Virus record (IMG/VR): IMGVR_UViG_3300010299_004680
Coordinates: 1 to 22,370 of that record
DNA: 22,370 bases
Reading direction: 5' to 3' (one strand)
Origin: a virus
Shown here piece after piece: positions 6,080-21,226 of this stretch (its first letter is position 1; every line of letters starts with the position of its first letter). Position numbers and translations under genes: made by a program. The notes under the pieces were generated by a model. The model was not told the origin of the DNA and made no database searches. It was given only the letters and a program-made list of their open reading frames with translations.

Positions 6080-6308
6080 TTTGCACCTCCATTTCCAGAG
6101 CAAGATAATCACCGAATACCTGGACTGAATATCCATCGGCTTGAAATGTTGCAATCAGTTGCAACAGCTCTTCCGAGGAAATGCAATCAGTATTCATTTT
6201 GATTGCCGCTCTTGTAGAATTTGCATTTTTTACCTCAAGAGCAGAAGAAAAAATGTTTGTGTTGTTTGTAATGAGATTATTCAGTTTTTGTAAATGTAAT
6301 GTGTTCAT
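6072..6308 (-). CDS. Hypothetical small protein with MNT-QKLN start cassette
   Basis: A 78-residue protein starting at 6308, six bases after TAATAT. Its first residues 'MNTLHLQKLN' match the 'MNTTPQKLN' beginnings of the genes at 16483 and 16765, and the DNA upstream is also alike, although the bodies are unrelated. The C-terminal part ('SSEELLQLIATFQADGYSVQ', then 'VFGDYLALEMEVQ') suggests a small alpha/beta fold. It heads the operon 6308 to 4858 and ends in an ATGCATAA overlap with the next gene. The function is unknown. Confidence 0.65.
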   Translation of the reverse strand: MNTLHLQKLNNLITNNTNIFSSALEVKNANSTRAAIKMNTDCISSEELLQLIATFQADGYSVQVFGDYLALEMEVQNA

Positions 6309-6320
6309 AATTGGATATTA
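6309..6320 (-). promoter_or_regulatory. Leaderless promoter of the 6308-4858 operon
   Basis: On the minus strand TAATAT (6320-6315), preceded by TG one base away (extended -10), is followed by CCAATT and ATG. The CCAATTATGAACAC block is identical to that at 16483 and 16765. Confidence 0.6.
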
Positions 6321-6329
6321 TCATAGTAA

Positions 6330-6348
6330 AAAACGCGCACGCAGTTTT
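6330..6348 (-). terminator. Possible short terminator hairpin between minus-strand genes
   Basis: On the minus strand GAAAAC, a GCGTGCGC core and GTTTTTTAC form a small hairpin with a T-run. The same element, nearly base for base, precedes the starts at 16483 and 16765. It may end the upstream transcript just before the next promoter. Confidence 0.4.
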
Positions 6349-6363
6349 CACGCAAAAGTTTTT

Positions 6364-6666: not shown

Positions 6667-7089
6667 TTAAAAGTTTTGCCAAACATTTAGATTAACAAAA
6701 ATTCCATTTGTTGATGTGTCAGCCCAAGACAATTTTTGCCAGCAAGAAAAGTAATAAATTTGAAAACTATCATCTGAATTACTTGGCAAAATTTGTTCTT
6801 GATGATTGCAAATTGGCAAGTTTGCCCTACCAGCATCATAAACAGGAGAAACAGAAAAACTCCAAGTTGTATTTGCCCGAGCATAAACTGCAAACTGCTG
6901 GACAAGTGTTTGTTCCTGAATGATAGGCTCACCAACTTGAACAAGATGTGTTTCAATTGCTGGCAATATAGTCAGTGTTAGTTGCTGAGTTGCTGAGTCG
7001 GTTGCAGATTTTGCCGTTGATGCATTTACAGCAAATAAACAAAGTGTAAATAAAATGCTGATGATTATTATTTGAATTTTTTTAATCAA
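6667..7089 (-). CDS. Secreted or surface protein with signal peptide
   Basis: I place the start at TTG 7089, because GAGGT lies six bases before it and the product then begins with a clean signal peptide: a basic end (MIKKIQ), a hydrophobic core ('IIIISILFTLCLFAV') and a likely cleavage after 'VNA'. An ATG at 7128 in the same frame would overlap the upstream gene by 47 bases and is less likely. The mature part (about 115 residues) is beta-rich ('QLTLTILPAIETHLVQVGE', 'WSFSVSPVYD') with two Cys that could pair. There is no anchor or membrane segment after the signal peptide. The family is unknown. A phage-made exported protein could alter the host surface, for example in superinfection exclusion; this is inference. 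Confidence 0.65.
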   Translation of the reverse strand: MIKKIQIIIISILFTLCLFAVNASTAKSATDSATQQLTLTILPAIETHLVQVGEPIIQEQTLVQQFAVYARANTTWSFSVSPVYDAGRANLPICNHQEQILPSNSDDSFQIYYFSCWQKLSWADTSTNGIFVNLNVWQNF

Positions 7090-7348
7090 GATAATACCTC
7101 GGCTTTTGTAGCTGGTAATATTTTTCATCAGTCAAATCAATTTTTTTATAAATTTTTTCAAACTGAACATTTGATGGAAAAGGAATAATTTCAATCAATT
7201 CATCTTCCTCCCAAACTTTCAAATATGTTTCTTGGGGGTGAGTGAAAAGTTGGAAAAATAAACTTGTTCTTTTTCCGTATTGTTCAAATACAAAAACTCC
7301 ATCGGGGTTGTAATCATTATCAAATTTTGAGTAAAATATATCTTTCAT
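7082..7348 (-). CDS. Hypothetical small protein, 88 residues
   Basis: The start at 7348 (MKDIFYSKFD) is chosen because TATAAT lies seven bases before it; a frame extension to 7369 would run into the promoter. The protein is rich in aromatic and acidic residues ('VFVFEQYGKRTSLFFQLF', 'YLKVWEEDELIEIIPFP') and looks like a compact alpha/beta protein without membrane segments. It overlaps the secreted protein's TTG start by eight bases (TTGATTAA), so the two are probably co-translated. No family was recognised. Confidence 0.65.
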   Translation of the reverse strand: MKDIFYSKFDNDYNPDGVFVFEQYGKRTSLFFQLFTHPQETYLKVWEEDELIEIIPFPSNVQFEKIYKKIDLTDEKYYQLQKPRYYLD

Positions 7349-7361
7349 ATATCCCATTATA
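7349..7361 (-). promoter_or_regulatory. -10 box giving a leaderless start at 7348
   Basis: On the minus strand a perfect TATAAT (7361-7356) is followed by seven bases and ATG at 7348. No Shine-Dalgarno site is present. Confidence 0.6.
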
Positions 7362-7503
7362 GCTGGCAATTTGGAGAAATCTTGTTTTTAGCTTAAATTT
7401 TTTTGAATTGCCTGTTATGCGAAATTCCAGCAGGATTTAGGATTTTTTTTTACAATAGAGGGTGCAGAGGGCGGGGATTGGGATATTAGGTTTAAGCTAT
7501 GAA

Positions 7504-7610
7504 GAGAAGAAGAGTTAAAGAGAAGAAGAGTTAAAGAGAAGAAGAGTTAAAGAGAAGAAGAGTTAAAGAGAAGAAGAGTTAAAGAGAAGAAGAGTTAAAG
7601 AGAAGAAGAG
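7504..7610. repeat. Tandem array, 16-base unit, 6.7 copies
   Basis: Six perfect copies of GAGAAGAAGAGTTAAA run from 7504 to 7599, followed by 11 bases of a seventh copy. One strand is nearly all purine. The unit is not a multiple of three and no long frame crosses the array, so it is non-coding. Perfect copies suggest recent amplification or strong constraint. Confidence 0.95.
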
Positions 7611-7612
7611 AA

Positions 7613-7624
7613 CGCGCGCGCGCG
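7613..7624. repeat. (CG)6 alternating run
   Basis: Twelve bases of alternating C and G directly follow the tandem array in an otherwise AT-rich region. Such runs can adopt left-handed DNA. Confidence 0.9.
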
Positions 7625-7724
7625 TATGTATTTATAAACTGTTCCCACCTATCTCCCGATATAATCCGCAAAGACAGTCAGCAAGCGGAAACGCAAAACG
7701 ACATCACAAGAAAAACAATTGGAT

Positions 7725-8240
7725 TTATTGTATTTCATTTATTGTTTTGATAATTTCAAAATCGGTATCTGATATTTCTATTTTTTTGGTTTTGCAGCGT
7801 CCAGTGTAATACATATGCTGAGCGATAAAGCGGACAGCAAAAGTCCAGCGGACTGGCAAATCACCATCATTTGGAGGAAAGCCTATCATAGCCTCAAACT
7901 CAGGCATTTGCTGAATGTCATCACACCAATCTGTGTCAGCAAAAAGTCCAATACCAATAATGTCCTGATGATTTTCAGATTGCAGTTCAGCCACTCTTTC
8001 AATGATTTGCTTAAATGCCTGATTTCTTAAATTCATTAACACAATATTGCCATCAACACTTTCTGGATTGATTTCTTCTTGGCAATTTTTATTAAGGATA
8101 AAAAAGATTTCAAAAATTTCACAATCTGTATTTCTCCAATCTCTTTCATCAATTCCAGAAACAAACAGTGGAAATTTCTTTTTTAACCTCATTATAATTT
8201 CATCAAGTAACAAATCTCTTTCATTTTCAGGGCTGAGCAT
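7725..8240 (-). CDS. Hypothetical protein, 171 residues
   Basis: The protein is acidic and probably globular. It opens with a charged helix ('PENERDLLLDEIIMRLKKK') and later has 'GIGLFADTDWCDD' and 'VRWTFAVRFIAQHMYY'. No signal peptide, membrane segment or known motif was recognised. An AGGA eight bases before the ATG may serve as ribosome site; a TAGGAT six bases before it could instead be a weak -10 box. It is divergent from the gene at 8322, so the 81 bases between them hold two promoters. Confidence 0.65.
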   Translation of the reverse strand: MLSPENERDLLLDEIIMRLKKKFPLFVSGIDERDWRNTDCEIFEIFFILNKNCQEEINPESVDGNIVLMNLRNQAFKQIIERVAELQSENHQDIIGIGLFADTDWCDDIQQMPEFEAMIGFPPNDGDLPVRWTFAVRFIAQHMYYTGRCKTKKIEISDTDFEIIKTINEIQ

Positions 8241-8283
8241 ACAACAATCCTAATTCTTAGGGAATTATTTACAGTGGAAATTA

Positions 8284-8321
8284 TTGCAAAAATTCAAAAA
8301 ATCCTATATGATGAAAAGTAA
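8284..8321 (+). promoter_or_regulatory. Sigma-70-type promoter before 8322
   Basis: TTGCAA (8284-8289), a 17-base spacer and TATGAT (8307-8312) make a good housekeeping-type promoter. The ATG is nine bases after the -10 box, so the leader would be only two or three bases. Confidence 0.65.
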
Positions 8322-8984
8322 ATGACCCAAAATCCATATAATAAAAGTTTGCCACAGGGTTGGGTTGAGGCAAAATATGAAACGGCAACTCACTATCTTA
8401 TTGGTTATTTAATGGAGCCTGGCTGTGAGTTTGAAAAACGCTGGAGCAGTTTTATTGGCAAATGGGAAAATGCAAAAGGCTTGGAGATGAGAATAAAACA
8501 ACAAGAGATTAGGCACGAGCATCAAGGCTTTGGTAATGTTAAAATGCGGGAGGCAGTTCAAAGAGCTTTGAAGCAATCAAAAACACGAGCCTATGGCACA
8601 ATTGATATTCTGAGATTGGATAAAATATTAGTTGCAGAAAAATTATCACCAATGATAGCCCTTGACCCAAAAGGCTTTATTGCAAAAACTCCGGGCAGCA
8701 AAAAAGAAGCCAAATACCGCAAGCACGGTGTTCCTGATGATATTGCTGATGAGTTTGAGGCGCTGAGATATATCAAAGGACACGGACCCCCAATCAGTCA
8801 GACAGCGAGCACAAAAGCACGAGGAAACAGAGACCCAAGAATTAAGGCGCAAAGATGCGTGAGCGAGTGGGTCCGCTGGATTGAAGTTCAAGCTTTGGAT
8901 AATTTGATTGCCAATTTACACGATGACAACAAAGCTGGAGATGTTGTTGTGGACAGAGAAGAGTTTTTGAAAATTTTAAGGTAA
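8322..8984 (+). CDS. Hypothetical protein, 220 residues
   Basis: First gene of the plus-strand middle region, with its own promoter. The protein is basic and appears soluble, with mixed helices ('LEMRIKQQEIRHEHQGFG', 'VSEWVRWIEVQALDNLIANL') and a Gly/Thr/Lys/Arg-rich linker near residue 160 ('HGPPISQTASTKARGNRD'). There are no membrane segments or catalytic motifs that I recognise. A nucleic-acid-binding role would fit the charge, but nothing specific shows it. Confidence 0.7.
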   Translation: MTQNPYNKSLPQGWVEAKYETATHYLIGYLMEPGCEFEKRWSSFIGKWENAKGLEMRIKQQEIRHEHQGFGNVKMREAVQRALKQSKTRAYGTIDILRLDKILVAEKLSPMIALDPKGFIAKTPGSKKEAKYRKHGVPDDIADEFEALRYIKGHGPPISQTASTKARGNRDPRIKAQRCVSEWVRWIEVQALDNLIANLHDDNKAGDVVVDREEFLKILR

Positions 8985-9025
8985 TATCATTATGATAAAA
9001 ACACAACAAGAATAATTTTTTGCTA

Positions 9026-9037
9026 TACAATGGAAAT
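9026..9037 (+). promoter_or_regulatory. -10 box giving a leaderless start at 9038
   Basis: TACAAT at 9026-9031 is followed by GGAAAT and ATG. The same GGAAATATGAAAA block follows the -10 box at 9360. Confidence 0.55.
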
Positions 9038-9328
9038 ATGAAAAATATATTTAACAAAATCAAAACAATTTTCCGCTACAAAAAACCCAGCATTTTAGTC
9101 AGTCCCACAAAAAAAGTTAATGTTCAGTCATCAGCAATTAGGGCTGTTGAATATGATGAGCAGACAAAAGACCTTTTTGTTGATTTCACAAAAGGAACAA
9201 AATACCGTTATTCAGAAGTCAAAGCAGAAGATTTTTATAATCTTGTTTCCAGCGAGTCCGTTGGTAAGGAATTTGTTGCCTCTATCCGCAATTCCTACGA
9301 ATTTGAAAAAATTGAGGAAAAGAAATAA
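9038..9328 (+). CDS. KTSC-domain protein
   Basis: A 96-residue protein. After a short basic N-terminus ('FNKIKTIFRYKKPS') comes a KTSC domain at about residues 28-90: 'VQSSAIRAVEYDEQTKDLFV', then 'FTKGTKYRYSEVKAEDF' and 'SVGKEFVASIRNSYEF'. KTSC is a small domain of unknown biochemical role, named for its Lys-Thr-Ser-Cys signature, found in many phage and bacterial proteins, sometimes linked to nucleic-acid-related genes. ATG 9038 is preferred to TTG 9020 because the -10 box overlaps the codons between them. It has its own leaderless promoter. Confidence 0.8.
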   Translation: MKNIFNKIKTIFRYKKPSILVSPTKKVNVQSSAIRAVEYDEQTKDLFVDFTKGTKYRYSEVKAEDFYNLVSSESVGKEFVASIRNSYEFEKIEEKK

Positions 9329-9337
9329 GCGAAAATT

Positions 9338-9371
9338 CTGCCACATTTTCAATTTTGCATATAATGGAAAT
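9338..9371 (+). promoter_or_regulatory. Promoter giving a leaderless start at 9372
   Basis: CTGCCA (9338-9343), a 16-base spacer and a perfect TATAAT (9360-9365) are followed by GGAAAT and ATG 9372. Confidence 0.6.
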
Positions 9372-9677
9372 ATGAAAACAATTCAAAACATACTTAACGC
9401 CGTTTGGCAAAAAATACAAAATGAACCAGTAATTATTAAGACAGCTTTGGCAACCGCAATTGCTGGAGGCTATCTTAATTTCCTGGCTCCAACGCAAATT
9501 ACTCTTTTGGAAAACCTTGCAGCATTAGCTGTTTTTGTTATCACAGCTTATTCATTAAGAAGCGATGTTGCACCAGTTCCGCCAGAGCTGAGAGGAAGCA
9601 TTATTCCTGGACATAAAGATAATGTTCCTAAGGAGTTTGTTATCAGTGATACCCCTTCTGGCGACCAAGAAAACTAA
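9372..9677 (+). CDS. Holin-like membrane protein
   Basis: A 101-residue protein with ATG 9372 fixed by the -10 box six bases before it; the longer frame from 9120 is an overlap artefact. It has 'EPVIIKTALATAIAGGYLNF' (first hydrophobic segment, about 18-38), 'LLENLAALAVFVITAYSL' (second, about 45-65) and then 'RSDVAPVPPE', a layout like the holin-type proteins of actinobacteriophages (EPxxI, two helices, R-x-x-V-x-P). It lies about 5 kb from the lysis genes and just before the metallophosphoesterase. It may be a true holin, or a membrane protein of another role. Confidence 0.5.
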   Translation: MKTIQNILNAVWQKIQNEPVIIKTALATAIAGGYLNFLAPTQITLLENLAALAVFVITAYSLRSDVAPVPPELRGSIIPGHKDNVPKEFVISDTPSGDQEN

Positions 9678-9694
9678 AAAAGGAAAAATATTAA

Positions 9695-10951
9695 ATGGAC
9701 ACTACAAAGAAAAATAAAATAATTGCAGCGCTTAAAAAGCACAACGGAAACGCAACAGCAGCAGCTAAAGAGTTAGATGTTCCTCCGAGGACAATGAGGC
9801 GCTGGGTTGCAGAAAATAATCTCCGTTTGCAAATTGATGATACCGATGCAGACAAAAGAAAAGTAACATCACAAAAACAAAAAGATGGCACGCTTTCACC
9901 AGATGCTTTACATTTAACTCCAGAAGAGTTGATGGAAGCCTATAATCTGGGTGATGATTATTTTCCTGTTAAGTTGGATATTTCAGAGCGAGATGCAGGA
10001 ACAGCCTCTGCTCCAAAAGTCAGCAGAGGCATTTCACTCACTGTTCAAAAAAAGCCAGAATTGCCAGAGCCAGCTTTTGAAGGCAGACCAATTACAATTA
10101 AGCCAAGAAAGCGCAGCAAGAAAAAGCAAAAAAAGACCACTGAGTTGGTGTTGGTCATTTCAGATTATCACGCACCCTATGTTGATTGGGATTTGCACAA
10201 CGCCGCGCTTAGGCTGATTGAAGAAAATGAGCCAAATAGAATTATTGTTAATGGAGATTTGGTAGATTTTCCAACAGTTGGCAGACACCGTCAAACAACG
10301 CAAAGATGTATGGCAACGGTGTCAGAGTGTATTGAAGTTGGCGGCAAGATTTTATCAGATTTAAGAGCAGCGGCAACCGAAGATTGCCAAATTGATTTTA
10401 TTCCTGGTAATCACGATGCGTGGCTTTCAAATTATATTCTTGATAAAGCAAAATCTATTTATGACCTTACAGCATACGGAGAAGAAACTCCTGTGTGGTC
10501 ATTTGAAAAGCTGTTTAGGCTAGAAGAAATGGGAATAAATATTGTTGGCGAGCCTGACACCTGGCCAAGTTCCCACATAGCGCTCACTCAGCATTTAATT
10601 GTTCATCACGGTGATGTGGCGCGCAAAGGTTCTGGAGCCTCACCTCTGGCAAGTATGAGCGGAAAAGATTTTGCAGAAATCCACGGTCATACCCACAGAC
10701 AAAGTATTGTTTCCAGATGCGTTCATTTTGCAGACGGTAGCACAAAGATTTATCAGGGCGGCGAGTGTGGGGCGATGTGTAAAATGGAAGATGGCGGATT
10801 TCCCACTTACACAAGACACCCAGACTGGCAAACTGGTTTCTGTTCTGTTGAGTTATTGCTAGATGATAAAGGCAATAAGACAGAACATTATTCTATTGAT
10901 TTGGCAACCTGGCAAAATTCTGTTTTAATGTGGCGCGGCAATGCTTGGTAG
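9695..10951 (+). CDS. Calcineurin-like metallophosphoesterase with N-terminal HTH
   Basis: A 418-residue protein. Residues 18-40 form a Fis-like helix-turn-helix ('ATAAAKELDVPPRTMRRW'). Residues about 60-148 are a linker ending in a very basic stretch ('KPRKRSKKKQKK'). Residues 150-400 hold all five metal-site motifs of calcineurin-type phosphoesterases: DYH (157-159), GDLVD (187-191), GNHD (238-241), HHGD (304-307) and GHTH (331-334). The enzyme should cleave phosphomono- or diesters using two metal ions, and HTH plus basic linker suggest that it acts on DNA. An AAGGA site lies about ten bases before the start, only 17 bases after the preceding stop. The substrate is unknown. Confidence 0.85.
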   Translation: MDTTKKNKIIAALKKHNGNATAAAKELDVPPRTMRRWVAENNLRLQIDDTDADKRKVTSQKQKDGTLSPDALHLTPEELMEAYNLGDDYFPVKLDISERDAGTASAPKVSRGISLTVQKKPELPEPAFEGRPITIKPRKRSKKKQKKTTELVLVISDYHAPYVDWDLHNAALRLIEENEPNRIIVNGDLVDFPTVGRHRQTTQRCMATVSECIEVGGKILSDLRAAATEDCQIDFIPGNHDAWLSNYILDKAKSIYDLTAYGEETPVWSFEKLFRLEEMGINIVGEPDTWPSSHIALTQHLIVHHGDVARKGSGASPLASMSGKDFAEIHGHTHRQSIVSRCVHFADGSTKIYQGGECGAMCKMEDGGFPTYTRHPDWQTGFCSVELLLDDKGNKTEHYSIDLATWQNSVLMWRGNAW

Positions 10952-10989
10952 ATTTATCGGAAATCATAGCAAATAATTATTTTTTACCT

Positions 10990-11011
10990 TACAATATGAT
11001 AAAAGATTGTA
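10990..11011 (+). promoter_or_regulatory. Promoter with very short leader before 11012
   Basis: TACAAT (10990-10995) and TATGAT (10995-11000) overlap. Using the second, transcription would begin around 11007, giving a leader of about five bases. There is no Shine-Dalgarno site before the ATG. Confidence 0.45.
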
Positions 11012-12292
11012 ATGAATAAGGATAATGAAAAAGCAATTGGAGTAATTGGACTTGGCTGGGTTGGATTAGTTACATCAGTTTGTTTTGCTGAGCTAGGATA
11101 TAATATAGTTGCTCACGATATTTTGCAAAACAAAATTAAAGATTTGAAGAACGGCAAAACAAATCTTTATGAACCTGATTTGCCAGAGTTGCTGAGTAAA
11201 AACAAAAACAAAATTACTTTTACAACATCTGTTCAGGAGGTAATGAATAAAACAGAAATCATTTTTATTTGTGTTGATACACCCCCTACACAATTTGGAG
11301 ATGCAGACCTTTCAAAAGTGTTTGCAGTGATTAGCAATTTGCAAGCAAGCACAGACCACATTTTGGTAATGAAAAGCACCGTGCCGCCAGGGACTGGCAA
11401 CAAAATTAAAAACTATAATGAAAATATAGTGTATGTTTCCTGTCCGGAATTTTTGAAAGAAGGCAGCGCAATCAAAGATTTTATGAGTCCGGACAGAGTT
11501 GTTATTGGAACAACAGAAGATGATAAAGATGCTGGACTTAAGGTTGCTGAGCTTTACAGTCAGCTTAACAGCCCAATAATTTTTACAGATTTGCCAAGCG
11601 CTGAGATGATAAAGATTGCATCAAATGCTTTTTTGGCAACAAAAATATCTTTTATAAATGAAATAGCAAATGTTTGTGAAAAAGTTGATGCAAATATTGA
11701 TGATGTTGCATTTGGAATGGGAAGTGATACAAGAATTGGAAATGAATTTCTCAAAGCTGGTATTGGATATGGAGGCTCTTGTTTTCCGAAGGACGTCAGC
11801 GCATTAAAAACAATGTCAGGAAATTTTGGATATTACTTTCAAACTCTTAATGCCACAATTGAAGTAAATGAAATGCAAAAGCGTTCTATCATCAACAGAT
11901 TAAAAAAACAGTTGGGTAATTTGCATAATAAACAAATAGGTTTGCTCGGAATGTCATTTAAGCCAAACACCGATGACATCAGAGAAGCACCAAGTGTTGT
12001 GATAGCAAACAGATTAAAAAGCGAAGGCGCAAAAATTGTTGCTTATGACCCAGTTGCATCAAATCGGATTAAAGATGTGATTGATGAAATTGAAATGACA
12101 GAAATGCCAGAAAATGTTTTTGCTCAATCAGATGCTGTTGTTTTGATTACAGAGTGGAGCGAGTTCAGAGAATTAAATTGGGAAAATCTTTTTGGCAAGA
12201 TGCTCACTCCTATCATTATTGATGGAAGGAATTGTTTAGATAAAGAACGATTGTTGCAGGCTGGATTTCTTTATCAAGGCATTGGACGATAA
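11012..12292 (+). CDS. ugd: UDP-glucose 6-dehydrogenase (nucleotide-sugar dehydrogenase)
   Basis: A 426-residue protein, full length for the family. It has an NAD-binding Rossmann start ('IGVIGLGWVGLVTS', residues 9-22), 'STVPPGTG' (122-129), 'PEFLKEGSAIKDFMSPDRVV' (145-164), the central helix with Lys201 and Asn205 ('EMIKIASNAFLATKISF'), the catalytic Cys257 in 'GGSCFPKD', and the C-terminal 'GMSFKPNTDDIREAPS'. It would oxidise UDP-glucose to UDP-glucuronate with two NAD+. A UDP-N-acetylhexosamine dehydrogenase is the main alternative, but the decarboxylase for UDP-glucuronate at 15469 supports the glucose form. It stands alone on its promoter; an inverted repeat follows the stop. Confidence 0.9.
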   Translation: MNKDNEKAIGVIGLGWVGLVTSVCFAELGYNIVAHDILQNKIKDLKNGKTNLYEPDLPELLSKNKNKITFTTSVQEVMNKTEIIFICVDTPPTQFGDADLSKVFAVISNLQASTDHILVMKSTVPPGTGNKIKNYNENIVYVSCPEFLKEGSAIKDFMSPDRVVIGTTEDDKDAGLKVAELYSQLNSPIIFTDLPSAEMIKIASNAFLATKISFINEIANVCEKVDANIDDVAFGMGSDTRIGNEFLKAGIGYGGSCFPKDVSALKTMSGNFGYYFQTLNATIEVNEMQKRSIINRLKKQLGNLHNKQIGLLGMSFKPNTDDIREAPSVVIANRLKSEGAKIVAYDPVASNRIKDVIDEIEMTEMPENVFAQSDAVVLITEWSEFRELNWENLFGKMLTPIIIDGRNCLDKERLLQAGFLYQGIGR

Positions 12293-12433
12293 ATCACCAG
12301 AAGCGCCCTAGAGCGCTTTGGATTGTTTTTACTAGCAAACACATATCAAACAGTTGGCAAGCACCCCTAAAAGCGGCTGAGCGCGCAGAAATGCTTTTTT
12401 GAAATGATAAAAAAGCCTGATTATCGGAAATTC
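12293..12433. other. Intergenic stretch with inverted repeat
   Basis: AAGCGC-CCTAGA-GCGCTT (12311-12327) is followed by a partial T-run and may end the ugd transcript. It resembles the inverted repeats at 4689 and near 4754. No coding frame is supported in the rest. Confidence 0.4.
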
Positions 12434-12469
12434 CTGCAAAATAATCAATGTTCCCATATAATGAGAAAA
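12434..12469 (+). promoter_or_regulatory. Promoter giving a leaderless start at 12470
   Basis: CTGCAA (12434-12439), a 17-base spacer and a perfect TATAAT (12457-12462) are followed by seven bases and ATG 12470. Confidence 0.65.
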
Positions 12470-13936
12470 ATGTCCAAATTAGATAAACAGCACCCAATGA
12501 TAAATGATTTTTGGGAAATCTTGGATAATTATAAAGATTTGCCCTTGCCTAAATATCCTATTTATATACCAAGTAAGGGTAGGGCTGAGACAAAAGCAAC
12601 GGCTGCAAATTTTGAAGAGAATAATATTCCTTATACTTTTTCAATAGAAAAAGAAGATGAAGAAAAATACAGAAAAGCTTTTCCCAATGCCGAGTTTATT
12701 ATTTTAGAAAAATCAAATCAAGGTAATCCATATTCAAGAAATACAATTAAAGAACACGCCCTTAAAAATGGACATAAATATCATTGGCATATTGATGATG
12801 ATATAAAAAAAATGGCATATTATTTAGATGGCAAAAATAATTATTTTGATAATTTTGCTCAATGCCTATCCATTATAGAAGCAGTTTGTGATAAATATGA
12901 AAATATTGGAGCAGCAAGTCCAAGAAGCAGCGCTTTTTCAAGAACAGAAAAAAGCATTATTGGATTTAACAAAAATATTTATTGTGTGATGTTGTTGAAA
13001 AATGATAATGATATTTGGTTCCGACCAGATGTTCTTGAAGATAAAGATATGAGTATGCAGATTTTGGCAAACGGAGAATGCACTGTTTTATTTAACCGAC
13101 TTTTAATGTTTAATCCAAGCACGGGCACAAATTCAGGCGGACACGGAGTTCATAGTGAAAGAGTAAAAAGCAGAGCAGAAAGAGCAAAACAATTGGCTAA
13201 AAATTGGCCGGGAGCTTTTGAATTAAGAGAAACAAAAGATGGACTGAGACCAAAGCCGTCAAGAATTTGGCAAACTTTCAAACAAAGACCAATAAAAAAA
13301 GGAGAAAACAATATGAATATACACGAAACATTAAAGGATTTATTGATTGATATAGATGATGTAAAACCTTTTTCAAAAAATCCCCGAAAGGGCAATGTTG
13401 ATAAAATTCAACAATCACTGCAAGCAAACGGGCAATATCGTCCAATTGTTGTTAATAAAAAAACAAATGAAATTCTGGCTGGTAATCATACCTGGCAGGC
13501 AGCAAAGATTTTAGGCTGGAAAAAGATTGCAGCCACATTTGTTGATGTCAGCAAAGAAGAAGCAAAGAAAATTGTTTTGATAGATAATAAATCCAGTGAT
13601 GATGCTGATTACTATAATGAAACTTTGAAAGAATTGCTGGAAGATTTGAAGAATGATTTAGATGGCACCGGCTATTCAGAAAGCGACCTAAACACACTGA
13701 TTGCCGATACTATGCCAAAAACAGATGCTTTTGAAGAATGGGAAAATATGCCCGATTTTGAGTCAGAAGATGTTTCTTCTGCCTATAAAACAACTGTTCA
13801 TTTTCCAACAGAAGAAGATGCTGATAATTTTTTTAAGCTCCTTGGAGTTGAGCGCAAAAAAGTTTTATGGTATCCTGATACAGACGGGCATAAGCCGACA
13901 GACGGCAAAAAAGAATATATCAAAGAAGAGGAATAA
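12470..13936 (+). CDS. TAGT-family glycosyltransferase fused to ParB-like domain
   Basis: A 488-residue protein. I use ATG 12470, seven bases after TATAAT, rather than ATG 12404. Residues about 28-280 resemble TET-associated glycosyltransferases: 'PIYIPSKGRAETKATAANFE' (30-49), 'YSRNTIKEHALKNGHKYHWH' (88-107), the metal-binding acids DDD (109-111) and the late acidic motif 'LEDKDMS' (189-195). Residues 282-488 form a ParB/sulfiredoxin-like domain ('GQYRPIVVNKKTNEILAGNH', then 'TWQAAKILGWKKI'), seen in phages beside DNA-modification enzymes. A strong AAAGGAG followed by an in-frame ATG at 13313 lies exactly at the domain border, so the ParB part may also be made alone. The inferred role is transfer of a sugar to modified bases in phage DNA. 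Confidence 0.75.
   Translation: MSKLDKQHPMINDFWEILDNYKDLPLPKYPIYIPSKGRAETKATAANFEENNIPYTFSIEKEDEEKYRKAFPNAEFIILEKSNQGNPYSRNTIKEHALKNGHKYHWHIDDDIKKMAYYLDGKNNYFDNFAQCLSIIEAVCDKYENIGAASPRSSAFSRTEKSIIGFNKNIYCVMLLKNDNDIWFRPDVLEDKDMSMQILANGECTVLFNRLLMFNPSTGTNSGGHGVHSERVKSRAERAKQLAKNWPGAFELRETKDGLRPKPSRIWQTFKQRPIKKGENNMNIHETLKDLLIDIDDVKPFSKNPRKGNVDKIQQSLQANGQYRPIVVNKKTNEILAGNHTWQAAKILGWKKIAATFVDVSKEEAKKIVLIDNKSSDDADYYNETLKELLEDLKNDLDGTGYSESDLNTLIADTMPKTDAFEEWENMPDFESEDVSSAYKTTVHFPTEEDADNFFKLLGVERKKVLWYPDTDGHKPTDGKKEYIKEEE
13300..13315 (+). promoter_or_regulatory. Internal ribosome site and in-frame start at ParB border
   Basis: An A-run with GGAG at 13301-13304, then AAAACAAT and ATG (13313-13315), sits in frame inside the fused gene at codon 282. 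It is as good as any ribosome site in this window, so a separate product of about 207 residues is plausible. Confidence 0.6.
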
Positions 13937-13937
13937 A

Positions 13938-14837
13938 ATGCAACCTCAATTTCCGATTTATATTCCCTCCAAAAGCAGAGCGAGCACAGCAACAACCCCG
14001 CGAGTTCTTGAGGATATGGGAGTTGATTATCGGATTGTTGTTGAGGAGCAACAGTATAAAGAATATTCTGAATATTTCAAAAAAAGTAGGTTGTTGGTAT
14101 TGGACCCAAAATATTATGCTGAGTATGATGCCTGTATGGAAATTGAAGAAGGCGAGTCAAAGGGTTCTGGACCCGCACGCAATTTTATCTGGGAGCACTC
14201 AATCAGTGAAGGGCACGATTGGCACTGGACTATGGACGATAACATATATGAATTTTTACGGCTGCACAAAAATCAAAAAATAGCTGTTGGAGATGGAACA
14301 ATTTTTGTGGCAATGGAAGATTTTTCATTAAGATATGAAAATGTTGCTATGGCTGGACCGCATTATCGGGGCTTTGCTGATGCAAGAAAAAAGATGCCAC
14401 CTTTTATAACTGGCACTCGGGTTTTTTCTTGTAATTTAATCCGCAATGATTTGCCTTTTAGATGGCGTGGCAGATATAACGAAGATGTGGATTTATCTTT
14501 AAGAATGCTCAAAGCTGGCTGGGCAACAATACAATTTTTTGCATTTCTCCAAGACAAGGCTAAAACTCAAACATTTGCTGGAGGAAATACAGAAGCTTTT
14601 TATGCAAAAGAAGGAACATATCTGAAATCAAAAATGTTGGTTGATTTACACCCTGATGTAACTGAGTTGGCGTGGAGATTTGGTAGAGTTCATCACCACG
14701 TGGATTACTCACAGTGGAGAGGAATGCCGCTGATTAAAAAGAAAGATTATCAATCATCAAAAAACAATCCTTATAAAATGAAACTTGTGAATAAAACAAG
14801 AAGCGGCAAGAAATCTGGTAAAAAATATCTTGATTGA
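13938..14837 (+). CDS. TAGT-family glycosyltransferase, second copy
   Basis: A 299-residue protein starting one base after the previous stop, with GAGGA just ahead. It follows the TET-associated glycosyltransferase pattern closely: 'FPIYIPSKSRASTATTPRVL' (5-24), 'YRIVVEEQQYKEY', 'RNFIWEHSISEGHDWHW' (81-97), the metal site MDDN (99-102), 'MEDFSLRYENVAMAGPHY' and 'RYNEDVDLSLRML' (179-191). These enzymes have a GT-A fold and are predicted, from phage genomics, to glycosylate hydroxymethylated bases. It shares the IYIPSK-RA start and acidic site with the preceding gene but is diverged, so the two may act in sequence or on different acceptors. The sugar is inferred to be a pentose from the flanking genes. 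The C-terminus is Lys/Ser-rich and basic, suiting DNA binding. Confidence 0.82.
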   Translation: MQPQFPIYIPSKSRASTATTPRVLEDMGVDYRIVVEEQQYKEYSEYFKKSRLLVLDPKYYAEYDACMEIEEGESKGSGPARNFIWEHSISEGHDWHWTMDDNIYEFLRLHKNQKIAVGDGTIFVAMEDFSLRYENVAMAGPHYRGFADARKKMPPFITGTRVFSCNLIRNDLPFRWRGRYNEDVDLSLRMLKAGWATIQFFAFLQDKAKTQTFAGGNTEAFYAKEGTYLKSKMLVDLHPDVTELAWRFGRVHHHVDYSQWRGMPLIKKKDYQSSKNNPYKMKLVNKTRSGKKSGKKYLD

Positions 14838-14864
14838 AAAAAGAGCTTTTATCCAAAAACGCTT

Positions 14865-14879
14865 TATACTTAATTAACA
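14865..14879 (+). promoter_or_regulatory. -10 box with very short leader before 14880
   Basis: TATACT (14865-14870) lies nine bases before ATG 14880, so a leader of only two or three bases is expected. No -35 box is clear. Confidence 0.45.
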
Positions 14880-15479
14880 ATGGCAAGAAAAAACAAACTC
14901 ACAGAAGAACGAAAAGAAAAAATTGTTTCTTTTATCCGTGCTGGCAATTATGCAACACAGGCAGCGCAGGCGGCGGGAGTCAGTGAAAGCACATTTTACA
15001 GATGGCTTGCCAGGGGAAAAGATGCCGCTATTGTGTGCGAAAGATGGGAAGAAGATGTGGAAAACTGGAATAATTTGAATGATATGCAAAAGCGCAAACA
15101 GCAAAACAAAAAGCCCAATCTTGACAATGCGCCAGATGCTGATGATATTCTTTATTGGGAGTTTTGGGAGGCAGTCAAAAAAAGCGAAGCTGAGGCAGAA
15201 GCCTCTGCTGTTTTGCATATTAAGAAAGCAGCAAACGATGGCACCTGGCAAGCAGCCGCTTGGTATTTAGAAAGAAAATACAAAGACAGATGGGGACGAC
15301 AGGATAAAATCTCCCACGAAGGCACCATAAATCACTCACTAGGACTTAACGCATCAGAAGAAGAGATTGCAAACACAAGAAAGCGATTAGAGCAGGCGAG
15401 ACAATTGCCAGAAGGAGGCGTGGAGATTACGCGGACTGAGTTAATAGAAGCGGAAATTATTGAAGACAATGAAGAGTGA
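14880..15479 (+). CDS. Terminase small subunit-like HTH protein
   Basis: A 199-residue protein. Residues about 18-45 form a helix-turn-helix ('NYATQAAQAAGVSESTFYRW'). A central helical region (about 95-140) has 'ASAVLHIKKAANDGTWQAAA' and 'WYLERKYKDRWGRQDK', which is typical of phage small terminases that bind packaging sites. The C-terminus is acidic. Unusually, it lies 2.7 kb ahead of the large terminase, next to the glycosyltransferases, and its end overlaps the sugar-nucleotide decarboxylase gene. A transcription regulator of similar fold is an alternative. Confidence 0.7.
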   Translation: MARKNKLTEERKEKIVSFIRAGNYATQAAQAAGVSESTFYRWLARGKDAAIVCERWEEDVENWNNLNDMQKRKQQNKKPNLDNAPDADDILYWEFWEAVKKSEAEAEASAVLHIKKAANDGTWQAAAWYLERKYKDRWGRQDKISHEGTINHSLGLNASEEEIANTRKRLEQARQLPEGGVEITRTELIEAEIIEDNEE

Positions 15480-16428
15480 TAATAAAACAGTCAGTGTTGT
15501 TTCTGGAGGCGCTGGTTTTCTTGGCTCTCACTTGTGCGAGGCGTTATTGGCAAAAGGACACCGTGTTATTGCCATAGATAATTTATCAACAGGCTCAAGC
15601 AAAAATTTGGCAAACATATTATTCACGGAGAAAGACTTTCAGTTTATTCACGGCGATATTACAAAGGCAATTTCAATCAAAGAAGAAGTCAATTTTATTT
15701 ACAATCTGGCATCTCCTGCAAGTCCTAAAGATTATCAAAAGCTGAGTGTTGAAACACTGAGAGCGGGAGCATACGGCACAGAAAATCTTTTACAGCTAGC
15801 AGAAGACAACAGCGCCAGCTTTTTACAGGCATCAACATCAGAAATATATGGAGACCCGCTTATTAGCCCACAAACAGAAAGCTATTGGGGAAATGTCAAT
15901 CCAGTAGGAGCGCGCTCAATGTATGATGAGGCAAAGCGATACGGAGAAGCACTGGTTATGGCGCATCACCGCCAATACAAGACAGATACAAAGATTGCCA
16001 GAATATTTAACACATACGGAACAAGAATGAAATCAGACGACGGCAGAGCAATCCCCACTTTTTTGGCTCAAGCATTACAAGATAAAGATATAACTGTTTT
16101 TGGCGACGGCACGCAAACGCGTTCTTTTTGTTATGTCGGTGATTGTATTGCTGGACTGATAGCTTTAATGGAAAGTTCATATCATAGCCCGATTAACATT
16201 GGCAATCCAACAGAACACTCACTGCAAGAAGTGGCTGAAAAGGTTATTGATGCAACAAACTCAAGTTCTCAAATTGTTTATCTTGATTTGCCAGAAGATG
16301 ACCCAAAGACACGCAAGCCAGATATTAGCAAAGCAAAAAAAATCTTAAACTGGGAGCCAAAGATAGATTTGGAAAGAGGGTTGAAGATTGTTCTGCATCA
16401 GTCAAATTATCAAGATTTGATTTACTGA
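15469..16428 (+). CDS. uxs: UDP-glucuronate decarboxylase (UDP-xylose synthase)
   Basis: A 319-residue extended short-chain dehydrogenase, the usual length for bacterial UDP-xylose synthases. It has the NAD site 'GGAGFLGS' (13-20), the family marker 'NLASPASPKDYQ' (79-90), 'TSEIYGDP' with the Glu typical of decarboxylases (123-130), 'ESYWGNVNPVGARSMYDEAK' with the Tyr152/Lys156 pair, 'IFNTYGTRM' and 'QTRSFCYVGD'. It converts UDP-glucuronate, the product of the dehydrogenase at 11012, to UDP-xylose. Most family members have 'GPR' in two places where this one has 'GAR' and 'GTR', a small divergence. ATG 15469 overlaps the preceding gene by 11 bases; TTG 15460 is an alternative start. Neither has a strong ribosome site, so coupling is likely. 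Confidence 0.9.
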   Translation: MKSDNKTVSVVSGGAGFLGSHLCEALLAKGHRVIAIDNLSTGSSKNLANILFTEKDFQFIHGDITKAISIKEEVNFIYNLASPASPKDYQKLSVETLRAGAYGTENLLQLAEDNSASFLQASTSEIYGDPLISPQTESYWGNVNPVGARSMYDEAKRYGEALVMAHHRQYKTDTKIARIFNTYGTRMKSDDGRAIPTFLAQALQDKDITVFGDGTQTRSFCYVGDCIAGLIALMESSYHSPINIGNPTEHSLQEVAEKVIDATNSSSQIVYLDLPEDDPKTRKPDISKAKKILNWEPKIDLERGLKIVLHQSNYQDLIY

Positions 16429-16442
16429 AATCTTTTAAGATG

Positions 16443-16466
16443 AAAAACAGCGTGCGCGTTTTTTTC
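16443..16466 (+). terminator. Possible terminator after the decarboxylase gene
   Basis: AAAAAC and GTTTTT enclose a small GC/GC stem, followed by T residues. It is weak by stem length but recurs before 16765 and, on the minus strand, before 6308, always just upstream of the same promoter. Confidence 0.4.
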
Positions 16467-16470
16467 CTGC

Positions 16471-16482
16471 TATTATCCAATT
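16471..16482 (+). promoter_or_regulatory. Extended -10 promoter giving a leaderless start at 16483
   Basis: TGC-TATTAT (16468-16476) is an extended -10 box; CCAATT and ATG 16483 follow, six bases later. Confidence 0.6.
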
Positions 16483-16725
16483 ATGAACACTACACCACAA
16501 AAACTAAATATTATTTCCAATGTATGCACACGCGTTATCCAGCTTTCAAATGACCACACCTGGACTTGGGAGCTAACTCCAAACAGCGCCGGTCCTGTTA
16601 CAACTGGCACACTCCACCTAAACGCTCACCGAGATGGTGATGAATACTGGTTTGAAGTTGGCTTGATGGAAGCCGAAGGAATTATGTCAGACTGGGAGGA
16701 TATGGACATTAAGTTCGCACGATGA
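16483..16725 (+). CDS. Hypothetical small protein with MNTTPQKLN start
   Basis: An 80-residue protein. Its first nine codons are identical to those of the next gene because of the 72-base repeat. The rest looks like a small beta-sandwich ('DHTWTWELTPNSAGPVTTG', 'GDEYWFEVGLMEAEGIMSDW') and is unlike the next gene. No family was recognised. The stop lies at the beginning of repeat copy 2. Confidence 0.65.
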   Translation: MNTTPQKLNIISNVCTRVIQLSNDHTWTWELTPNSAGPVTTGTLHLNAHRDGDEYWFEVGLMEAEGIMSDWEDMDIKFAR

Positions 16726-16792
16726 AAAACAGCGTGCGCGTTTTTTTCCTGCTATTATCCAATTATGAACACTACACCACAAAAACTAAATA
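16721..16792 (+). repeat. 72-base direct repeat, copy 2
   Basis: Perfect copy of 16439-16510, offset by 282 bases. Recombination between the copies would remove exactly one promoter plus the 80-residue gene. Confidence 0.97.
16753..16764 (+). promoter_or_regulatory. Extended -10 promoter giving a leaderless start at 16765
   Basis: Duplicate of the promoter at 16471: TGC-TATTAT, six bases, ATG 16765. Confidence 0.6.
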
Positions 16793-18182: not shown

Positions 18183-19691
18183 ATGTCATTTATTCCTGCA
18201 AGATTGCTATTCACAACAGAGGCTGAAAGAGAGCTTATCCAATCTGATGAATTGGCAAACGCTCTTTTTGTAGAAGAAGAAAAAGAAAAGGTTGGACAAT
18301 CGTTTCTTTATTTTCTTGAAAACTATGGCTCACATCTACCAGCAGATGGTGGTTCTCCAGAGCCATTACAAATGTGGGACTATCAGCCCAAGATGGCAGA
18401 AGTATTGGCAATTGGCAATGATACAATTTGCCTTAAAAGTAGGCGCATCGGCTTTACTTTAATTGTGTGCCATTATCTTGTTTGGATTGCAGGCTTATCT
18501 GATGAAAAACCTGGAGCGCGGTGCATAGCTATTTCAAAAAATCAAAGAGATGCGGACGAGCTTTTGGCCACTTGCCGCAGCATAGTTAATTGCCTACCCC
18601 CATATCTCAGACCAGCAATAGGCGCAGAAGCAAAGAGCGCGCAGGGACAATTAGGCAAAGAAACAACAAAACACTTTTCTTTTCCGCTCAGAGATGGCGC
18701 GTCTATTCGCTCACTGCCAGCAAGCAGCAGCGCAGCGCGCTCATATACAGCCACTGTTCTTTTTCTTGATGAGCTGGCATTTCATCAAAACGCAGATGAA
18801 GTATGGGTTTCAGCAAAGCCAACAACAGAAGGCGGCGGACAAGTGATTGTGGGAAGCACAGGCAATGGGCGCAGCGGAGACGGCAAACACTTTTGTTTCT
18901 TGTGGGAACAGGCAGAGCGTGAAAAGATTATGGAGCCTATTTTTATTTCTTGGCGAGACAGAGAAGATAGGACGCAAGAATGGTATGATGAAACAGCAAA
19001 AACAATGCCGACATTAGATAAGATGCAACAAGAATATCCAGATAATCCAGATGAAGCGTTTTCTGGTCAATCTGAAAACTTGGCGTTCTCAATTACATCA
19101 CTGGCAGAAGCAGAGAGAACAGGAAAAGAATTTGACAATCTTTTGACAGAAAACAATTTGCCAGAAGCAGCTGATGAAATAGAAATAGGGATTGACTGGG
19201 GATTAAATTCGGCAGCAGTGATTGTTTATCCTTTAGCGGGCTTTGGCTTTTATATCATAGATGAGCTGGTGTCCAATACAGATGATGCTGAAACATTTTC
19301 AAAAAATACATTGGCTTTGGCTTTTCAGTATGCACAAGAGCACAACACGAAAATTGGACGCGTGTTCTATGATGCCGCTGGTGCTCAGCAAATGAAATCT
19401 TTCCAACGCATATCACCGCCCGACATTAGAATTACAAAAGTGCCATTTAATAAATATAAAACAAGGACTGTTGAATTTATTAGGCTACTTTTGAAAAGAA
19501 CGAAAGCAAAAGAGCCGATTGGCACAATTGCAATTTCGGCAAGATGTGAAGAGACATTAAAGCAAATGAGAGACATTAAACAAATGGAAGATGGCAGATT
19601 GCACAAGGGCAATGACCACAGTGTTGATGCCTTGATTGCCGCTTTATCGCAGCGCGCTGTTGAGTGGGACAAAAATTATGGGGTTAATTAA
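18183..19691 (+). CDS. terL: Terminase large subunit
   Basis: A 502-residue packaging motor. The N-terminal ATPase has the modified Walker A 'KSRRIGFT' (85-92), Walker B 'VLFLDELAF' (192-200, Asp196 and catalytic Glu197) and the coupling motif 'GSTGNG' (224-229). The C-terminal RNase H-type nuclease has 'IGIDWG' (335-340, Asp338), 'FYDAAG' with Asp397, and 'NDHSVDAL' with Asp478 and Asp482. It pumps DNA into the prohead through the portal (next gene) and cuts the concatemer. It starts the head gene cluster and has its own leaderless promoter; the small subunit candidate lies 2.7 kb upstream. Confidence 0.95.
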   Translation: MSFIPARLLFTTEAERELIQSDELANALFVEEEKEKVGQSFLYFLENYGSHLPADGGSPEPLQMWDYQPKMAEVLAIGNDTICLKSRRIGFTLIVCHYLVWIAGLSDEKPGARCIAISKNQRDADELLATCRSIVNCLPPYLRPAIGAEAKSAQGQLGKETTKHFSFPLRDGASIRSLPASSSAARSYTATVLFLDELAFHQNADEVWVSAKPTTEGGGQVIVGSTGNGRSGDGKHFCFLWEQAEREKIMEPIFISWRDREDRTQEWYDETAKTMPTLDKMQQEYPDNPDEAFSGQSENLAFSITSLAEAERTGKEFDNLLTENNLPEAADEIEIGIDWGLNSAAVIVYPLAGFGFYIIDELVSNTDDAETFSKNTLALAFQYAQEHNTKIGRVFYDAAGAQQMKSFQRISPPDIRITKVPFNKYKTRTVEFIRLLLKRTKAKEPIGTIAISARCEETLKQMRDIKQMEDGRLHKGNDHSVDALIAALSQRAVEWDKNYGVN

Positions 19692-19726: not shown

Positions 19727-21226
19727 ATGGGTATTTTTACAGGATTGAACAATATGATGGGAAAAAATACATTTCCGCCCACAAAAGAAATTGCAGACCG
19801 TTGGGAGTGGATAGCATATTGGTCTGGATTGCGGGACAATAATGAAATCTATGTAAGGAATGAAGCAATCAAAAGAGGAATGGGCGGCAGAAATCGCCAA
19901 GCCTATATTGCTCAGCCCGTGCCGCGCGCTTTATCTCAAGCGAGCGCAAACCTACTTTTTGGAGAGCCGCCGACAATTAAAGCTGGCAACCCTGATGACC
20001 AAGAAAGACTTGATGCAATCATTGGAACAAATAAGCTCTTTGCACAATGCAGAGCGGCAGCAATTACAAGCAGTTCAGAAGGCGGTGTTTATCTTAAGGT
20101 CAGCATAGACCCCAGCACCCCACGCGGACAGAAGGTTCCGCTTATTCAGTTTATTGAAGAACGCAGAGTTATTCCAAACTTTCAAAACTTTTCCGAGCTG
20201 GTGTCAGCAACAGTTATTACAAACTGGCAAGAAAACAATAAAGTTTATAGACTGATGGAGAACCATATCCCCGGTTATATCTCATATGAGTTATATGCTG
20301 GAGGCAGCAATGAAATTGGATTAAAAATTCCTTTGGCAAATCACCCGAAAACAGCAGGTATTGAAGAAGAGATGGAAACTGGCGTGAGTGAATTGCTGGT
20401 GTCATATATCCCCAACAGCCTTAATACAAACAGCCCATTTGGAGTCAGTGATTACGCAAATGGAATTGATGATTTGTTTTTTGCTTTTAACGATGCGACC
20501 AGCATAGCACACAGAGCAACACAAAGCGGCGTGCCACTCACTGTGTTGCCTCGTGAATTGCTAGATGAAAACCAATCACTTAATCACGAAAAAACAATTG
20601 TTGCAGTGAATAAACTGGCAGATACTCTTGGAGAAGGCGATGTTTCAAAGATGATTGAAACAGTTCAGCACAACGCTCAGCAGGACAAGTTTATGAGTTA
20701 TGCAAAAGAAGTTCTTGATTTGTTGCTTATCTTTTCTGGGATTAGCCCGCAGAGTATTGGCAGAAGCGTAGATGGCGGAGCAACAAGCGGCACAGCGCTT
20801 AAATTAAAAATGTCATCAACACTATCAACTGCAGCAGGCAAAGCTGTATTTTATGAAGACAGTTTGGCTGAGATGCTCAGACTGGCAGCAATCTTGGATA
20901 CAGAAACATTTGGCGATGGCAACAACATTAAAGAAGCAGCTGATTGGACAGAAGCTGAAAGCGCTGTTTCTGTTAAGCTAGATGATGGATTGCCTGATGA
21001 TGAGATTGAGATGGCAAATATTATTCAGAGGCTGAAAGCATCTGGAGCAATTTCCCTGGAGCAGGCAGTCAGAAAAGCCAATCCGCATATGACAGATGAA
21101 CAAGTTGAAGCAGAGATTGATGCAATCAGAGCTGAAACACAAGCTGAAACAGCGGCAATCGGTGAAGCATTACCAACAACAAACATTGGTAATATTCTCA
21201 GCGACATCACCGCAGAAGAGCTTTAG
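19727..21226 (+). CDS. Portal protein
   Basis: A 499-residue protein directly after the large terminase. The start ('DRWEWIAYWSGLRDN'), 'YIAQPVPRALSQASANLLFG' (about 60-79), a long middle domain and 'GISPQSIGRSVDGGATSGTA' (about 340-360), followed by a long helix and an acidic, Ala/Glu-rich C-terminus, fit phage portals of the SPP1 gp6-like type. The portal forms the twelve-subunit ring through which DNA enters and leaves the capsid. Length and place agree with the family. Confidence 0.88.
   Translation: MGIFTGLNNMMGKNTFPPTKEIADRWEWIAYWSGLRDNNEIYVRNEAIKRGMGGRNRQAYIAQPVPRALSQASANLLFGEPPTIKAGNPDDQERLDAIIGTNKLFAQCRAAAITSSSEGGVYLKVSIDPSTPRGQKVPLIQFIEERRVIPNFQNFSELVSATVITNWQENNKVYRLMENHIPGYISYELYAGGSNEIGLKIPLANHPKTAGIEEEMETGVSELLVSYIPNSLNTNSPFGVSDYANGIDDLFFAFNDATSIAHRATQSGVPLTVLPRELLDENQSLNHEKTIVAVNKLADTLGEGDVSKMIETVQHNAQQDKFMSYAKEVLDLLLIFSGISPQSIGRSVDGGATSGTALKLKMSSTLSTAAGKAVFYEDSLAEMLRLAAILDTETFGDGNNIKEAADWTEAESAVSVKLDDGLPDDEIEMANIIQRLKASGAISLEQAVRKANPHMTDEQVEAEIDAIRAETQAETAAIGEALPTTNIGNILSDITAEEL

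Follow-up and report, generated by a model that had tools for sequence, protein, structure and literature searches.

A phage-encoded UDP-xylose route beside ParB-linked TAGT glycosyltransferases: a candidate DNA pentosylation system in a packaging operon

We analyzed a 22,370-bp virus record (IMG/VR IMGVR_UViG_3300010299_004680, here called the window), itself a fragment of an incomplete genome, in which enzymes for making UDP-xylose flank two glycosyltransferases of the TET-associated glycosyltransferase (TAGT) family. One of the two TAGTs is fused to a ParB_N domain, both are encoded in the packaging operon, and the combination of ParB, TAGT and terminase genes recurs in unrelated phages. 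These observations define many TAGTs by their genomic setting: they are paired with ParB in a packaging operon, are distinct from the TET-linked enzymes, are often doubled and have sugar genes that vary from phage to phage. With moderate confidence, we interpret the system as one that would pentosylate phage DNA in a ParB-guided, packaging-coupled manner, on an acceptor formed by an unrecognized route.

UDP-xylose enzymes and TAGTs in the window

All of the relevant genes lie on the plus strand, in the order UDP-glucose 6-dehydrogenase, TAGT1-ParB fusion, TAGT2, small terminase, UDP-xylose synthase, small open reading frames (ORFs), two of them with similar starts, large terminase, portal and a scaffold-like ORF. 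A second contig (G001), which matches the window at 99.98% identity over 14.9 kb, comes from the same virus and reaches ~7.3 kb further than the window; a capsid-like gene and then a connector-like gene follow the scaffold-like ORF and run into it. The placement of the small terminase gene between TAGT2 and the UDP-xylose synthase, with large terminase and portal downstream, was absent from an earlier note on this DNA. The main features are as follows.

11012..12292, + strand: UDP-glucose 6-dehydrogenase (UGDH), 426 amino acids (Pfam; PDB 4a7p; PHROG 9148, 1e-103)
12404..13936, + strand: fusion of TAGT1, ParB_N and a 'WxxMPxF' tail, 510 amino acids (PF20691, 1e-31; PF02195, 3.5e-9; PHROG 842 and 723; tail hidden Markov model (HMM)); on the + strand, TAGT at ~12554-13141, ParB_N at ~13346-13588, tail at ~13730-13927
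13938..14837, + strand: TAGT2, predicted GT-A fold glycosyltransferase, 299 amino acids (PF20691, 7e-45; AlphaFold model; PDB GT-A matches)
14880..15479, + strand: terminase small subunit (PHROG 4102, 7e-35)
15469..16428, + strand: predicted UDP-xylose synthase (UDP-glucuronate decarboxylase, UXS), 319 amino acids (PDB 4gll/2b69; Pfam Epimerase, 8e-51)
18183..19691, + strand: terminase large subunit (PHROG 2, 6e-26)
19727..21226, + strand: portal protein (PF05133, 1.8e-16; PHROG 533, 8e-64)

The earlier note had proposed a phage-encoded route to UDP-xylose, and the predicted enzymes for both steps are present, with matches far above chance. UGDH matches all three UDPG_MGDP_dh domains of Pfam (3e-47, 1e-35 and 3e-35), finds the UDP-glucose dehydrogenase 4a7p as its best PDB match (1e-96) and carries its nucleophile, Cys257, within GYGGSCFPKD. 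UXS aligns over nearly its full length with human UDP-glucuronate decarboxylase 1 (4gll, 2b69; 1.8e-91, against 2.5e-35 for the next family) and keeps the catalytic STSE and YDEAK motifs that supply the Glu and YxxxK residues. By family it is a true UDP-xylose synthase, with the activity predicted from strong homology. Its start is most likely the ATG at 15469 rather than the TTG at 15460, and the last bases of the small terminase gene lie within its 5' end. A viral scan with UXS was uninformative, returning mainly generic short-chain dehydrogenases at ~25% identity. Human-faecal 'phage' scaffolds encoding a UXS of 53% identity are labelled UNVERIFIED and unannotated and were excluded, and the UXS of an Aphanizomenon phage belongs to a set of exopolysaccharide genes in which no TAGT is annotated.

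Both TAGTs described in the earlier note are real, scoring 110.6 bits (TAGT1) and 154 bits (TAGT2) against a curated PF20691 cut-off of 27.5, and both have the start motif and the acidic metal site; our alignment places the same DDD/DDN site in T6 and TET-linked TAGTs. That description missed the ParB fusion, the conserved tail and the terminase-operon position, which change the picture. TAGT1 is only the N-terminal part of its protein, and is followed by ParB_N at residues 315-395 and then by a TAGT-specific tail. The ParB part matches PHROG 498, the N-terminus of a DNA methyltransferase. A single-protein scan for close relatives of the fusion recovered only the same virus.

TAGT2, read from the ATG at 13938, gives a confident model of a GT-A fold enzyme: the AlphaFold prediction (pLDDT 89.5) matches GT-A structures in the PDB with Z up to 13.9 over 190-224 residues, and the nearest solved folds are mostly UDP-sugar-dependent enzymes. 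A PDB sequence search with the TAGT found no relative.

The tail of the fusion comprises ~65 residues with the pattern WxxMPxF...W.P, retained in an alignment of 35 relatives; its predicted structure is poor in quality. The tail HMM also matches the N-terminus of TAGT proteins from the T4-like phages Aeh1, avDM6, POP12 and 65, from Vibrio phages 1.076.O and 1.124.O, and from PTm1 and Kuja, and gave no match to T6, to P12024L or to any tested ParB-methyltransferase. Because the HMM finds the tail in TAGTs and not in those methyltransferases, the tail looks like a TAGT-specific companion domain. A tail common to ParB-methyltransferases, which we had considered, was ruled out by the same comparison; ParB_N alone is common to both groups.

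A recurrent cassette of ParB, TAGT and terminase genes

Scanning IMG/VR with TAGT2-like proteins returned at least 579 related places, 80 of which were kept and joined by two further loci. A gene for ParB and the tail occurs in 73 of these 82 loci and usually overlaps the TAGT start. The large terminase lies within 5 kb in 58 loci (49 of the 61 with at least 3 kb of downstream sequence) and the small terminase within 5 kb in 45. Large and small terminases each fall into three sequence clusters, and the order ParB, TAGT, small terminase, large terminase recurs in unrelated phages. Relatives of the cassette are also found in bacterial genomes – including Erwinia, Pantoea, Chryseobacterium, Xenophilus, Rhodovulum and Acidobacteriaceae – where they are presumably prophages. 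Vibrio phage henriette 12B8 has an unannotated TAGT-like stretch between annotated genes (HQ316582.1 21370-22173; L041:4001-4804).

A separate scan with TAGT1-like proteins revealed that tandem TAGTs are frequent. Two or more TAGTs are present in 33 of the 42 ParB-type loci, and TAGT1 and its partners fall together in the tree. One locus (L180, ~7000-11500) has four tandem TAGT genes downstream of its ParB gene. Domain order is shuffled between viruses: TAGT1-ParB-tail in the window virus becomes ParB-tail-TAGT1 in L168, L173 and L174, and TAGT-TAGT fusions occur in L047, L169, L170 and L172. This shuffling suggests that the ParB and TAGT parts probably work as a unit. Proximity to the terminase is not a mark peculiar to ParB-linked TAGTs, as we had considered; TET-linked ones tend to have a large terminase nearby too (18/33).

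Sugar-nucleotide genes accompany the cassette in several phages. At L191 the UXS, ParB and two TAGT genes overlap as one operon, and the UXS is 50% identical to that of the window. At L170/L171, genes for a GalE-like protein, a UDP-galactopyranose mutase (GLF, 1.6e-76) and a cytidylyltransferase precede ParB and a TAGT-TAGT fusion (L170:3733-8777), which makes L170 a candidate for galactofuranose modification. A UGDH-like gene sits between the TAGTs of L177, and nucleotide-sugar-type short-chain dehydrogenases lie close to a TAGT in L113, L116, L182, L202 and L204. Matches to the window UXS or UGDH within 5 kb were found at 7 of the 42 ParB-type loci (~5 independent, some being near-identical pairs) and at 0 of the 33 TET-type loci (p = 0.016). 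Given this contrast and the sugar genes at other loci, the xylose genes beside the window TAGTs are unlikely to be chance neighbors. Because other loci have sugar-nucleotide genes of their own, they lend independent support to the functional link between the UDP-xylose route and the TAGTs that the earlier note had drawn. Directly 5' of the ParB-TAGT genes of an Erwinia/Pantoea-type prophage (G019:C1:20792-22852) we observed MptE-like, GT9-like and methyltransferase genes; this prophage also carries Dam and a C5 DNA methylase.

Target and acceptor of the proposed modification

In the mechanism that we propose, UGDH would oxidize UDP-glucose, and decarboxylation of the resulting UDP-glucuronate by the phage UXS would give UDP-xylose. 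TAGT1 and TAGT2, which come from recurrently paired lineages, would transfer the pentose, probably in succession, so that a disaccharide product is possible. The ParB_N and WxxMPxF module, fused to TAGT1 in the window and encoded just 5' of TAGT2-like genes elsewhere, may tether the transferases to phage DNA. Phage DNA is the most likely target, and its modification would take place at about the time that it is packaged. The sugar added would be a pentose, either xylose or arabinose; no UDP-xylose 4-epimerase was recognized in the known part (~30 kb) of the virus genome, which is incomplete. Protection from restriction or CRISPR is a possible role.

A DNA target is suggested by the ParB_N-methyltransferases, since these DNA-modifying enzymes occupy the same slot beside the terminase. 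In prophage prophiT49-1 the gene immediately 5' of the terminase joins ParB_N to an N6_N4 DNA methyltransferase, and Curtobacterium phage Elener has a methyltransferase gene at the same place whose N-terminus matches the ParB region of the window. The precedent within the TAGT family, a T6 enzyme that acts on DNA (PMC13216743, PMC13390438), and the similar tendency of TET-linked TAGTs to lie near the terminase point the same way.

The earlier note had expected an acceptor-forming enzyme, such as a TET/JBP oxygenase, elsewhere in the genome, an expectation that our comparisons weaken. A TET gene lies near the TAGT at 30 of the 33 TET-type loci versus none of the 42 ParB-type loci (p = 7e-18); many records are fragments, which makes any one absence weak, but the contrast between classes at similar record size is strong. 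Searched over whole records, with cassette records spanning 25-150 kb, Tet_JBP exceeded its cut-off in no ParB-type record and in every TET-type record tested. In the tree, the TET-linked TAGTs (those of the P12024L type) group in a 27-tip clade of their own (support 0.999), with both window TAGTs outside. The label 'TET-associated' thus misleads for the window TAGTs, which are ParB-linked, not TET-linked. An assignment of TAGT1 to the TET-linked group, from a 28% match to P12024L, was ruled out by the tree.

Neither a TET/JBP oxygenase nor a thymidylate-synthase homologue was found in the G001 contig, which covers part of the genome. Thymidylate-synthase homologues are rare among the relatives, occurring in 2 of 24 tandem records and 3 of 36 other records. 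Of 12 cassette-bearing bacterial genomes, 8 encode thymidylate synthase, 7 of them in single copy (counted over the whole genome, prophage included). A C5-methyltransferase was rejected as a regular partner, being present in a minority of ParB-linked records only. The acceptor would appear to come neither from a TET/JBP oxygenase nor, in the small relatives, from a thymidylate-synthase homologue; an unrecognized enzyme may form it, or it may be a group on an ordinary base.

These results bear on the possibility that the window TAGTs carry out TET-type hypermodification of 5-hydroxymethylcytosine, the base being made by an oxygenase and a C5-methyltransferase, or by a dCMP hydroxymethylase, whose genes would lie in the portion of the genome that is missing. 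The family name and precedent and the incompleteness of the genome speak for it, as does the presence of a thymidylate-synthase homologue or dCMP deaminase near TAGT1/TAGT2 in large T4-like relatives (L204, L182); the TET linkage, the separate TET clade and the scarcity of thymidylate-synthase homologues and C5-methyltransferases leave it highly unlikely. We also consider it improbable that the TAGTs use host UDP-glucose and that the UDP-glucuronate or UDP-xylose made by the phage enzymes goes to a third transferase (described below) or to remodelling of the host envelope. This would fit the best-known TAGT, that of T6, which transfers glucose (PMC13216743), the occurrence of UXS in phages in other settings, and the low frequency of nearby UGDH/UXS-like genes (2 of 80 ParB-TAGT loci in the L046-L125 set, in addition to the 7 of 42 ParB-type loci given above for the tandem set). 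It fits poorly with the position of UGDH and UXS on both sides of the window TAGTs, with the overlapping genes of L191 and with the other dedicated sugar genes found at the same position elsewhere.

The main rival is that the sugars are placed on virion proteins (capsid, portal or tail) by TAGTs that are protein glycosyltransferases, which would account for the position of their genes within the packaging and head operon. Several observations weigh against a DNA target and toward this explanation. The PDB folds nearest TAGT2 include protein glycosyltransferases such as ppGalNAc-T, and fold alone does not show substrate. The window virus has, ~1.2 kb past the window end, a gene for a 340-amino acid CDP-glycerol glycerophosphotransferase-like or GT-B-like protein (G001:16037-17059, L026:5037-6059; Glyphos_transf, 2.8e-5) that follows the connector gene and precedes the tail genes, and the relative G042 has GT4, GT2 and epimerase genes between its capsid and tail genes. 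An acceptor-forming enzyme of known type was not found in most of the relatives with long contigs, and the literature gave no biochemical data on any ParB-linked TAGT. Virion glycosylation by phage-encoded glycosyltransferases is established, according to the part of PMC12619734 that cites Freeman et al. 2023. The third glycosyltransferase-like gene, the G042 genes and the missing acceptor enzyme favor virion-protein glycosylation, at least as an additional activity. Against it stand the near-constant linkage to ParB_N, otherwise common to DNA methyltransferases, the tendency of TET-linked TAGTs, which lie beside a DNA-base oxygenase, to be near the large terminase as well, and the occurrence of the same TAGT outside structural operons in T4-like relatives. 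On balance we consider this rival unlikely but a serious contender.

Several known systems come closest to the one proposed for the window. The T6 beta-glucosyl-hydroxymethylcytosine alpha-glucosyltransferase belongs to the same PF20691/PHROG family, with GT-A fold and DDD/DDN site (PMC13216743), but has neither ParB nor tail, lies beside the gp42 dCMP hydroxymethylase and is only ~18-20% identical. TAGTs linked to TET/JBP (e.g., Nonlabens P12024L) share PF20691 and are often near the large terminase, whereas they form a separate clade of single TAGTs adjacent to TET, without ParB, and no sugar-nucleotide genes were found with them. Pentose on phage cytosine is already known from the arabinosylated T4-like phages RB69 and NP (5-ara-dC in both) and from Thanatos, in which the activated pentose is believed to be provided by phage genes (PMC6024577, PMC13390438, PMC12838424); however, the RB69 transferase candidate is GT-B rather than a TAGT, the acceptor comes from a thymidylate-synthase homologue, and Thanatos makes its UDP-sugar by a pyrophosphorylase rather than by UGDH and UXS. 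The ParB_N-methyltransferase genes beside the terminase in prophiT49-1, and at the same position in Elener, likewise pair ParB_N with a DNA-modifying enzyme, with a methyltransferase in place of the glycosyltransferase and no WxxMPxF tail. Mycobacteriophage virion glycosylation shares with the window the use of phage-encoded glycosyltransferases, as described where PMC12619734 cites Freeman et al.

An Aeh1 homologue of TAGT2 is described, in the portion of PMC8056088 that cites Iyer et al. 2013, as a presumed DNA-modifying glucosyltransferase whose base is unknown. Solitary TAGTs were reported in 288 of 753 phage genomes with homologues of these glycosyltransferases, with their function left open (PMC13216743, 2026). 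We regard the ParB link of TAGTs as new, with caution. Pyle et al. 2024 reportedly mined metaviromes for 5hmC-dependent glycosyltransferase clusters and are said to have discussed partitioning and virion assembly.

More broadly, and speculatively, ParB-linked TAGTs might constitute a large class of DNA glycosyltransferases that do without a TET or thymidylate-synthase acceptor. Such enzymes would modify an ordinary base (e.g., at an exocyclic amine), or one hydroxylated by an unrecognized enzyme, at sites chosen by ParB, marking DNA for packaging or protecting it, and exchangeable nucleotide-sugar genes would determine which sugar is added (xylose in the window virus, perhaps galactofuranose in others); in this full form the generalization is rather doubtful. 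The cassette predicts specific sugars, a pentose in the case of the window virus, and a DNA target would imply either an acceptor chemistry or a base hydroxylase that is new. Cultured Erwinia, Chryseobacterium, Rhodovulum and Xenophilus contain related loci that are presumably prophages, which opens the question to nucleoside mass spectrometry.

Neighboring genes and repeats

Just 5' of UGDH (window 9695-10951) lies a gene for a metallophosphoesterase with an N-terminal helix-turn-helix; G003 and P12024L have metallophosphoesterase-like genes as well. In the contig that continues the window, a 1,676-amino acid virion-like protein (G001:17096-22126) appears, as judged by eye, to have RCC1-type repeats at its start, followed by many Ig-like repeats.

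A 72-bp element is present in the window as two identical direct copies (16439-16510 and 16721-16792) and an inverted copy, ~80% identical, on the minus strand (6278-6362). It extends over the leader and the initiation codon of small ORFs that begin MNTTPQKLN or MNTLHLQKLN, and its core, AAAACNGCGTGCGCGTTTTTT, occurs three times against zero expected. The element is possibly a shared promoter or regulator site.

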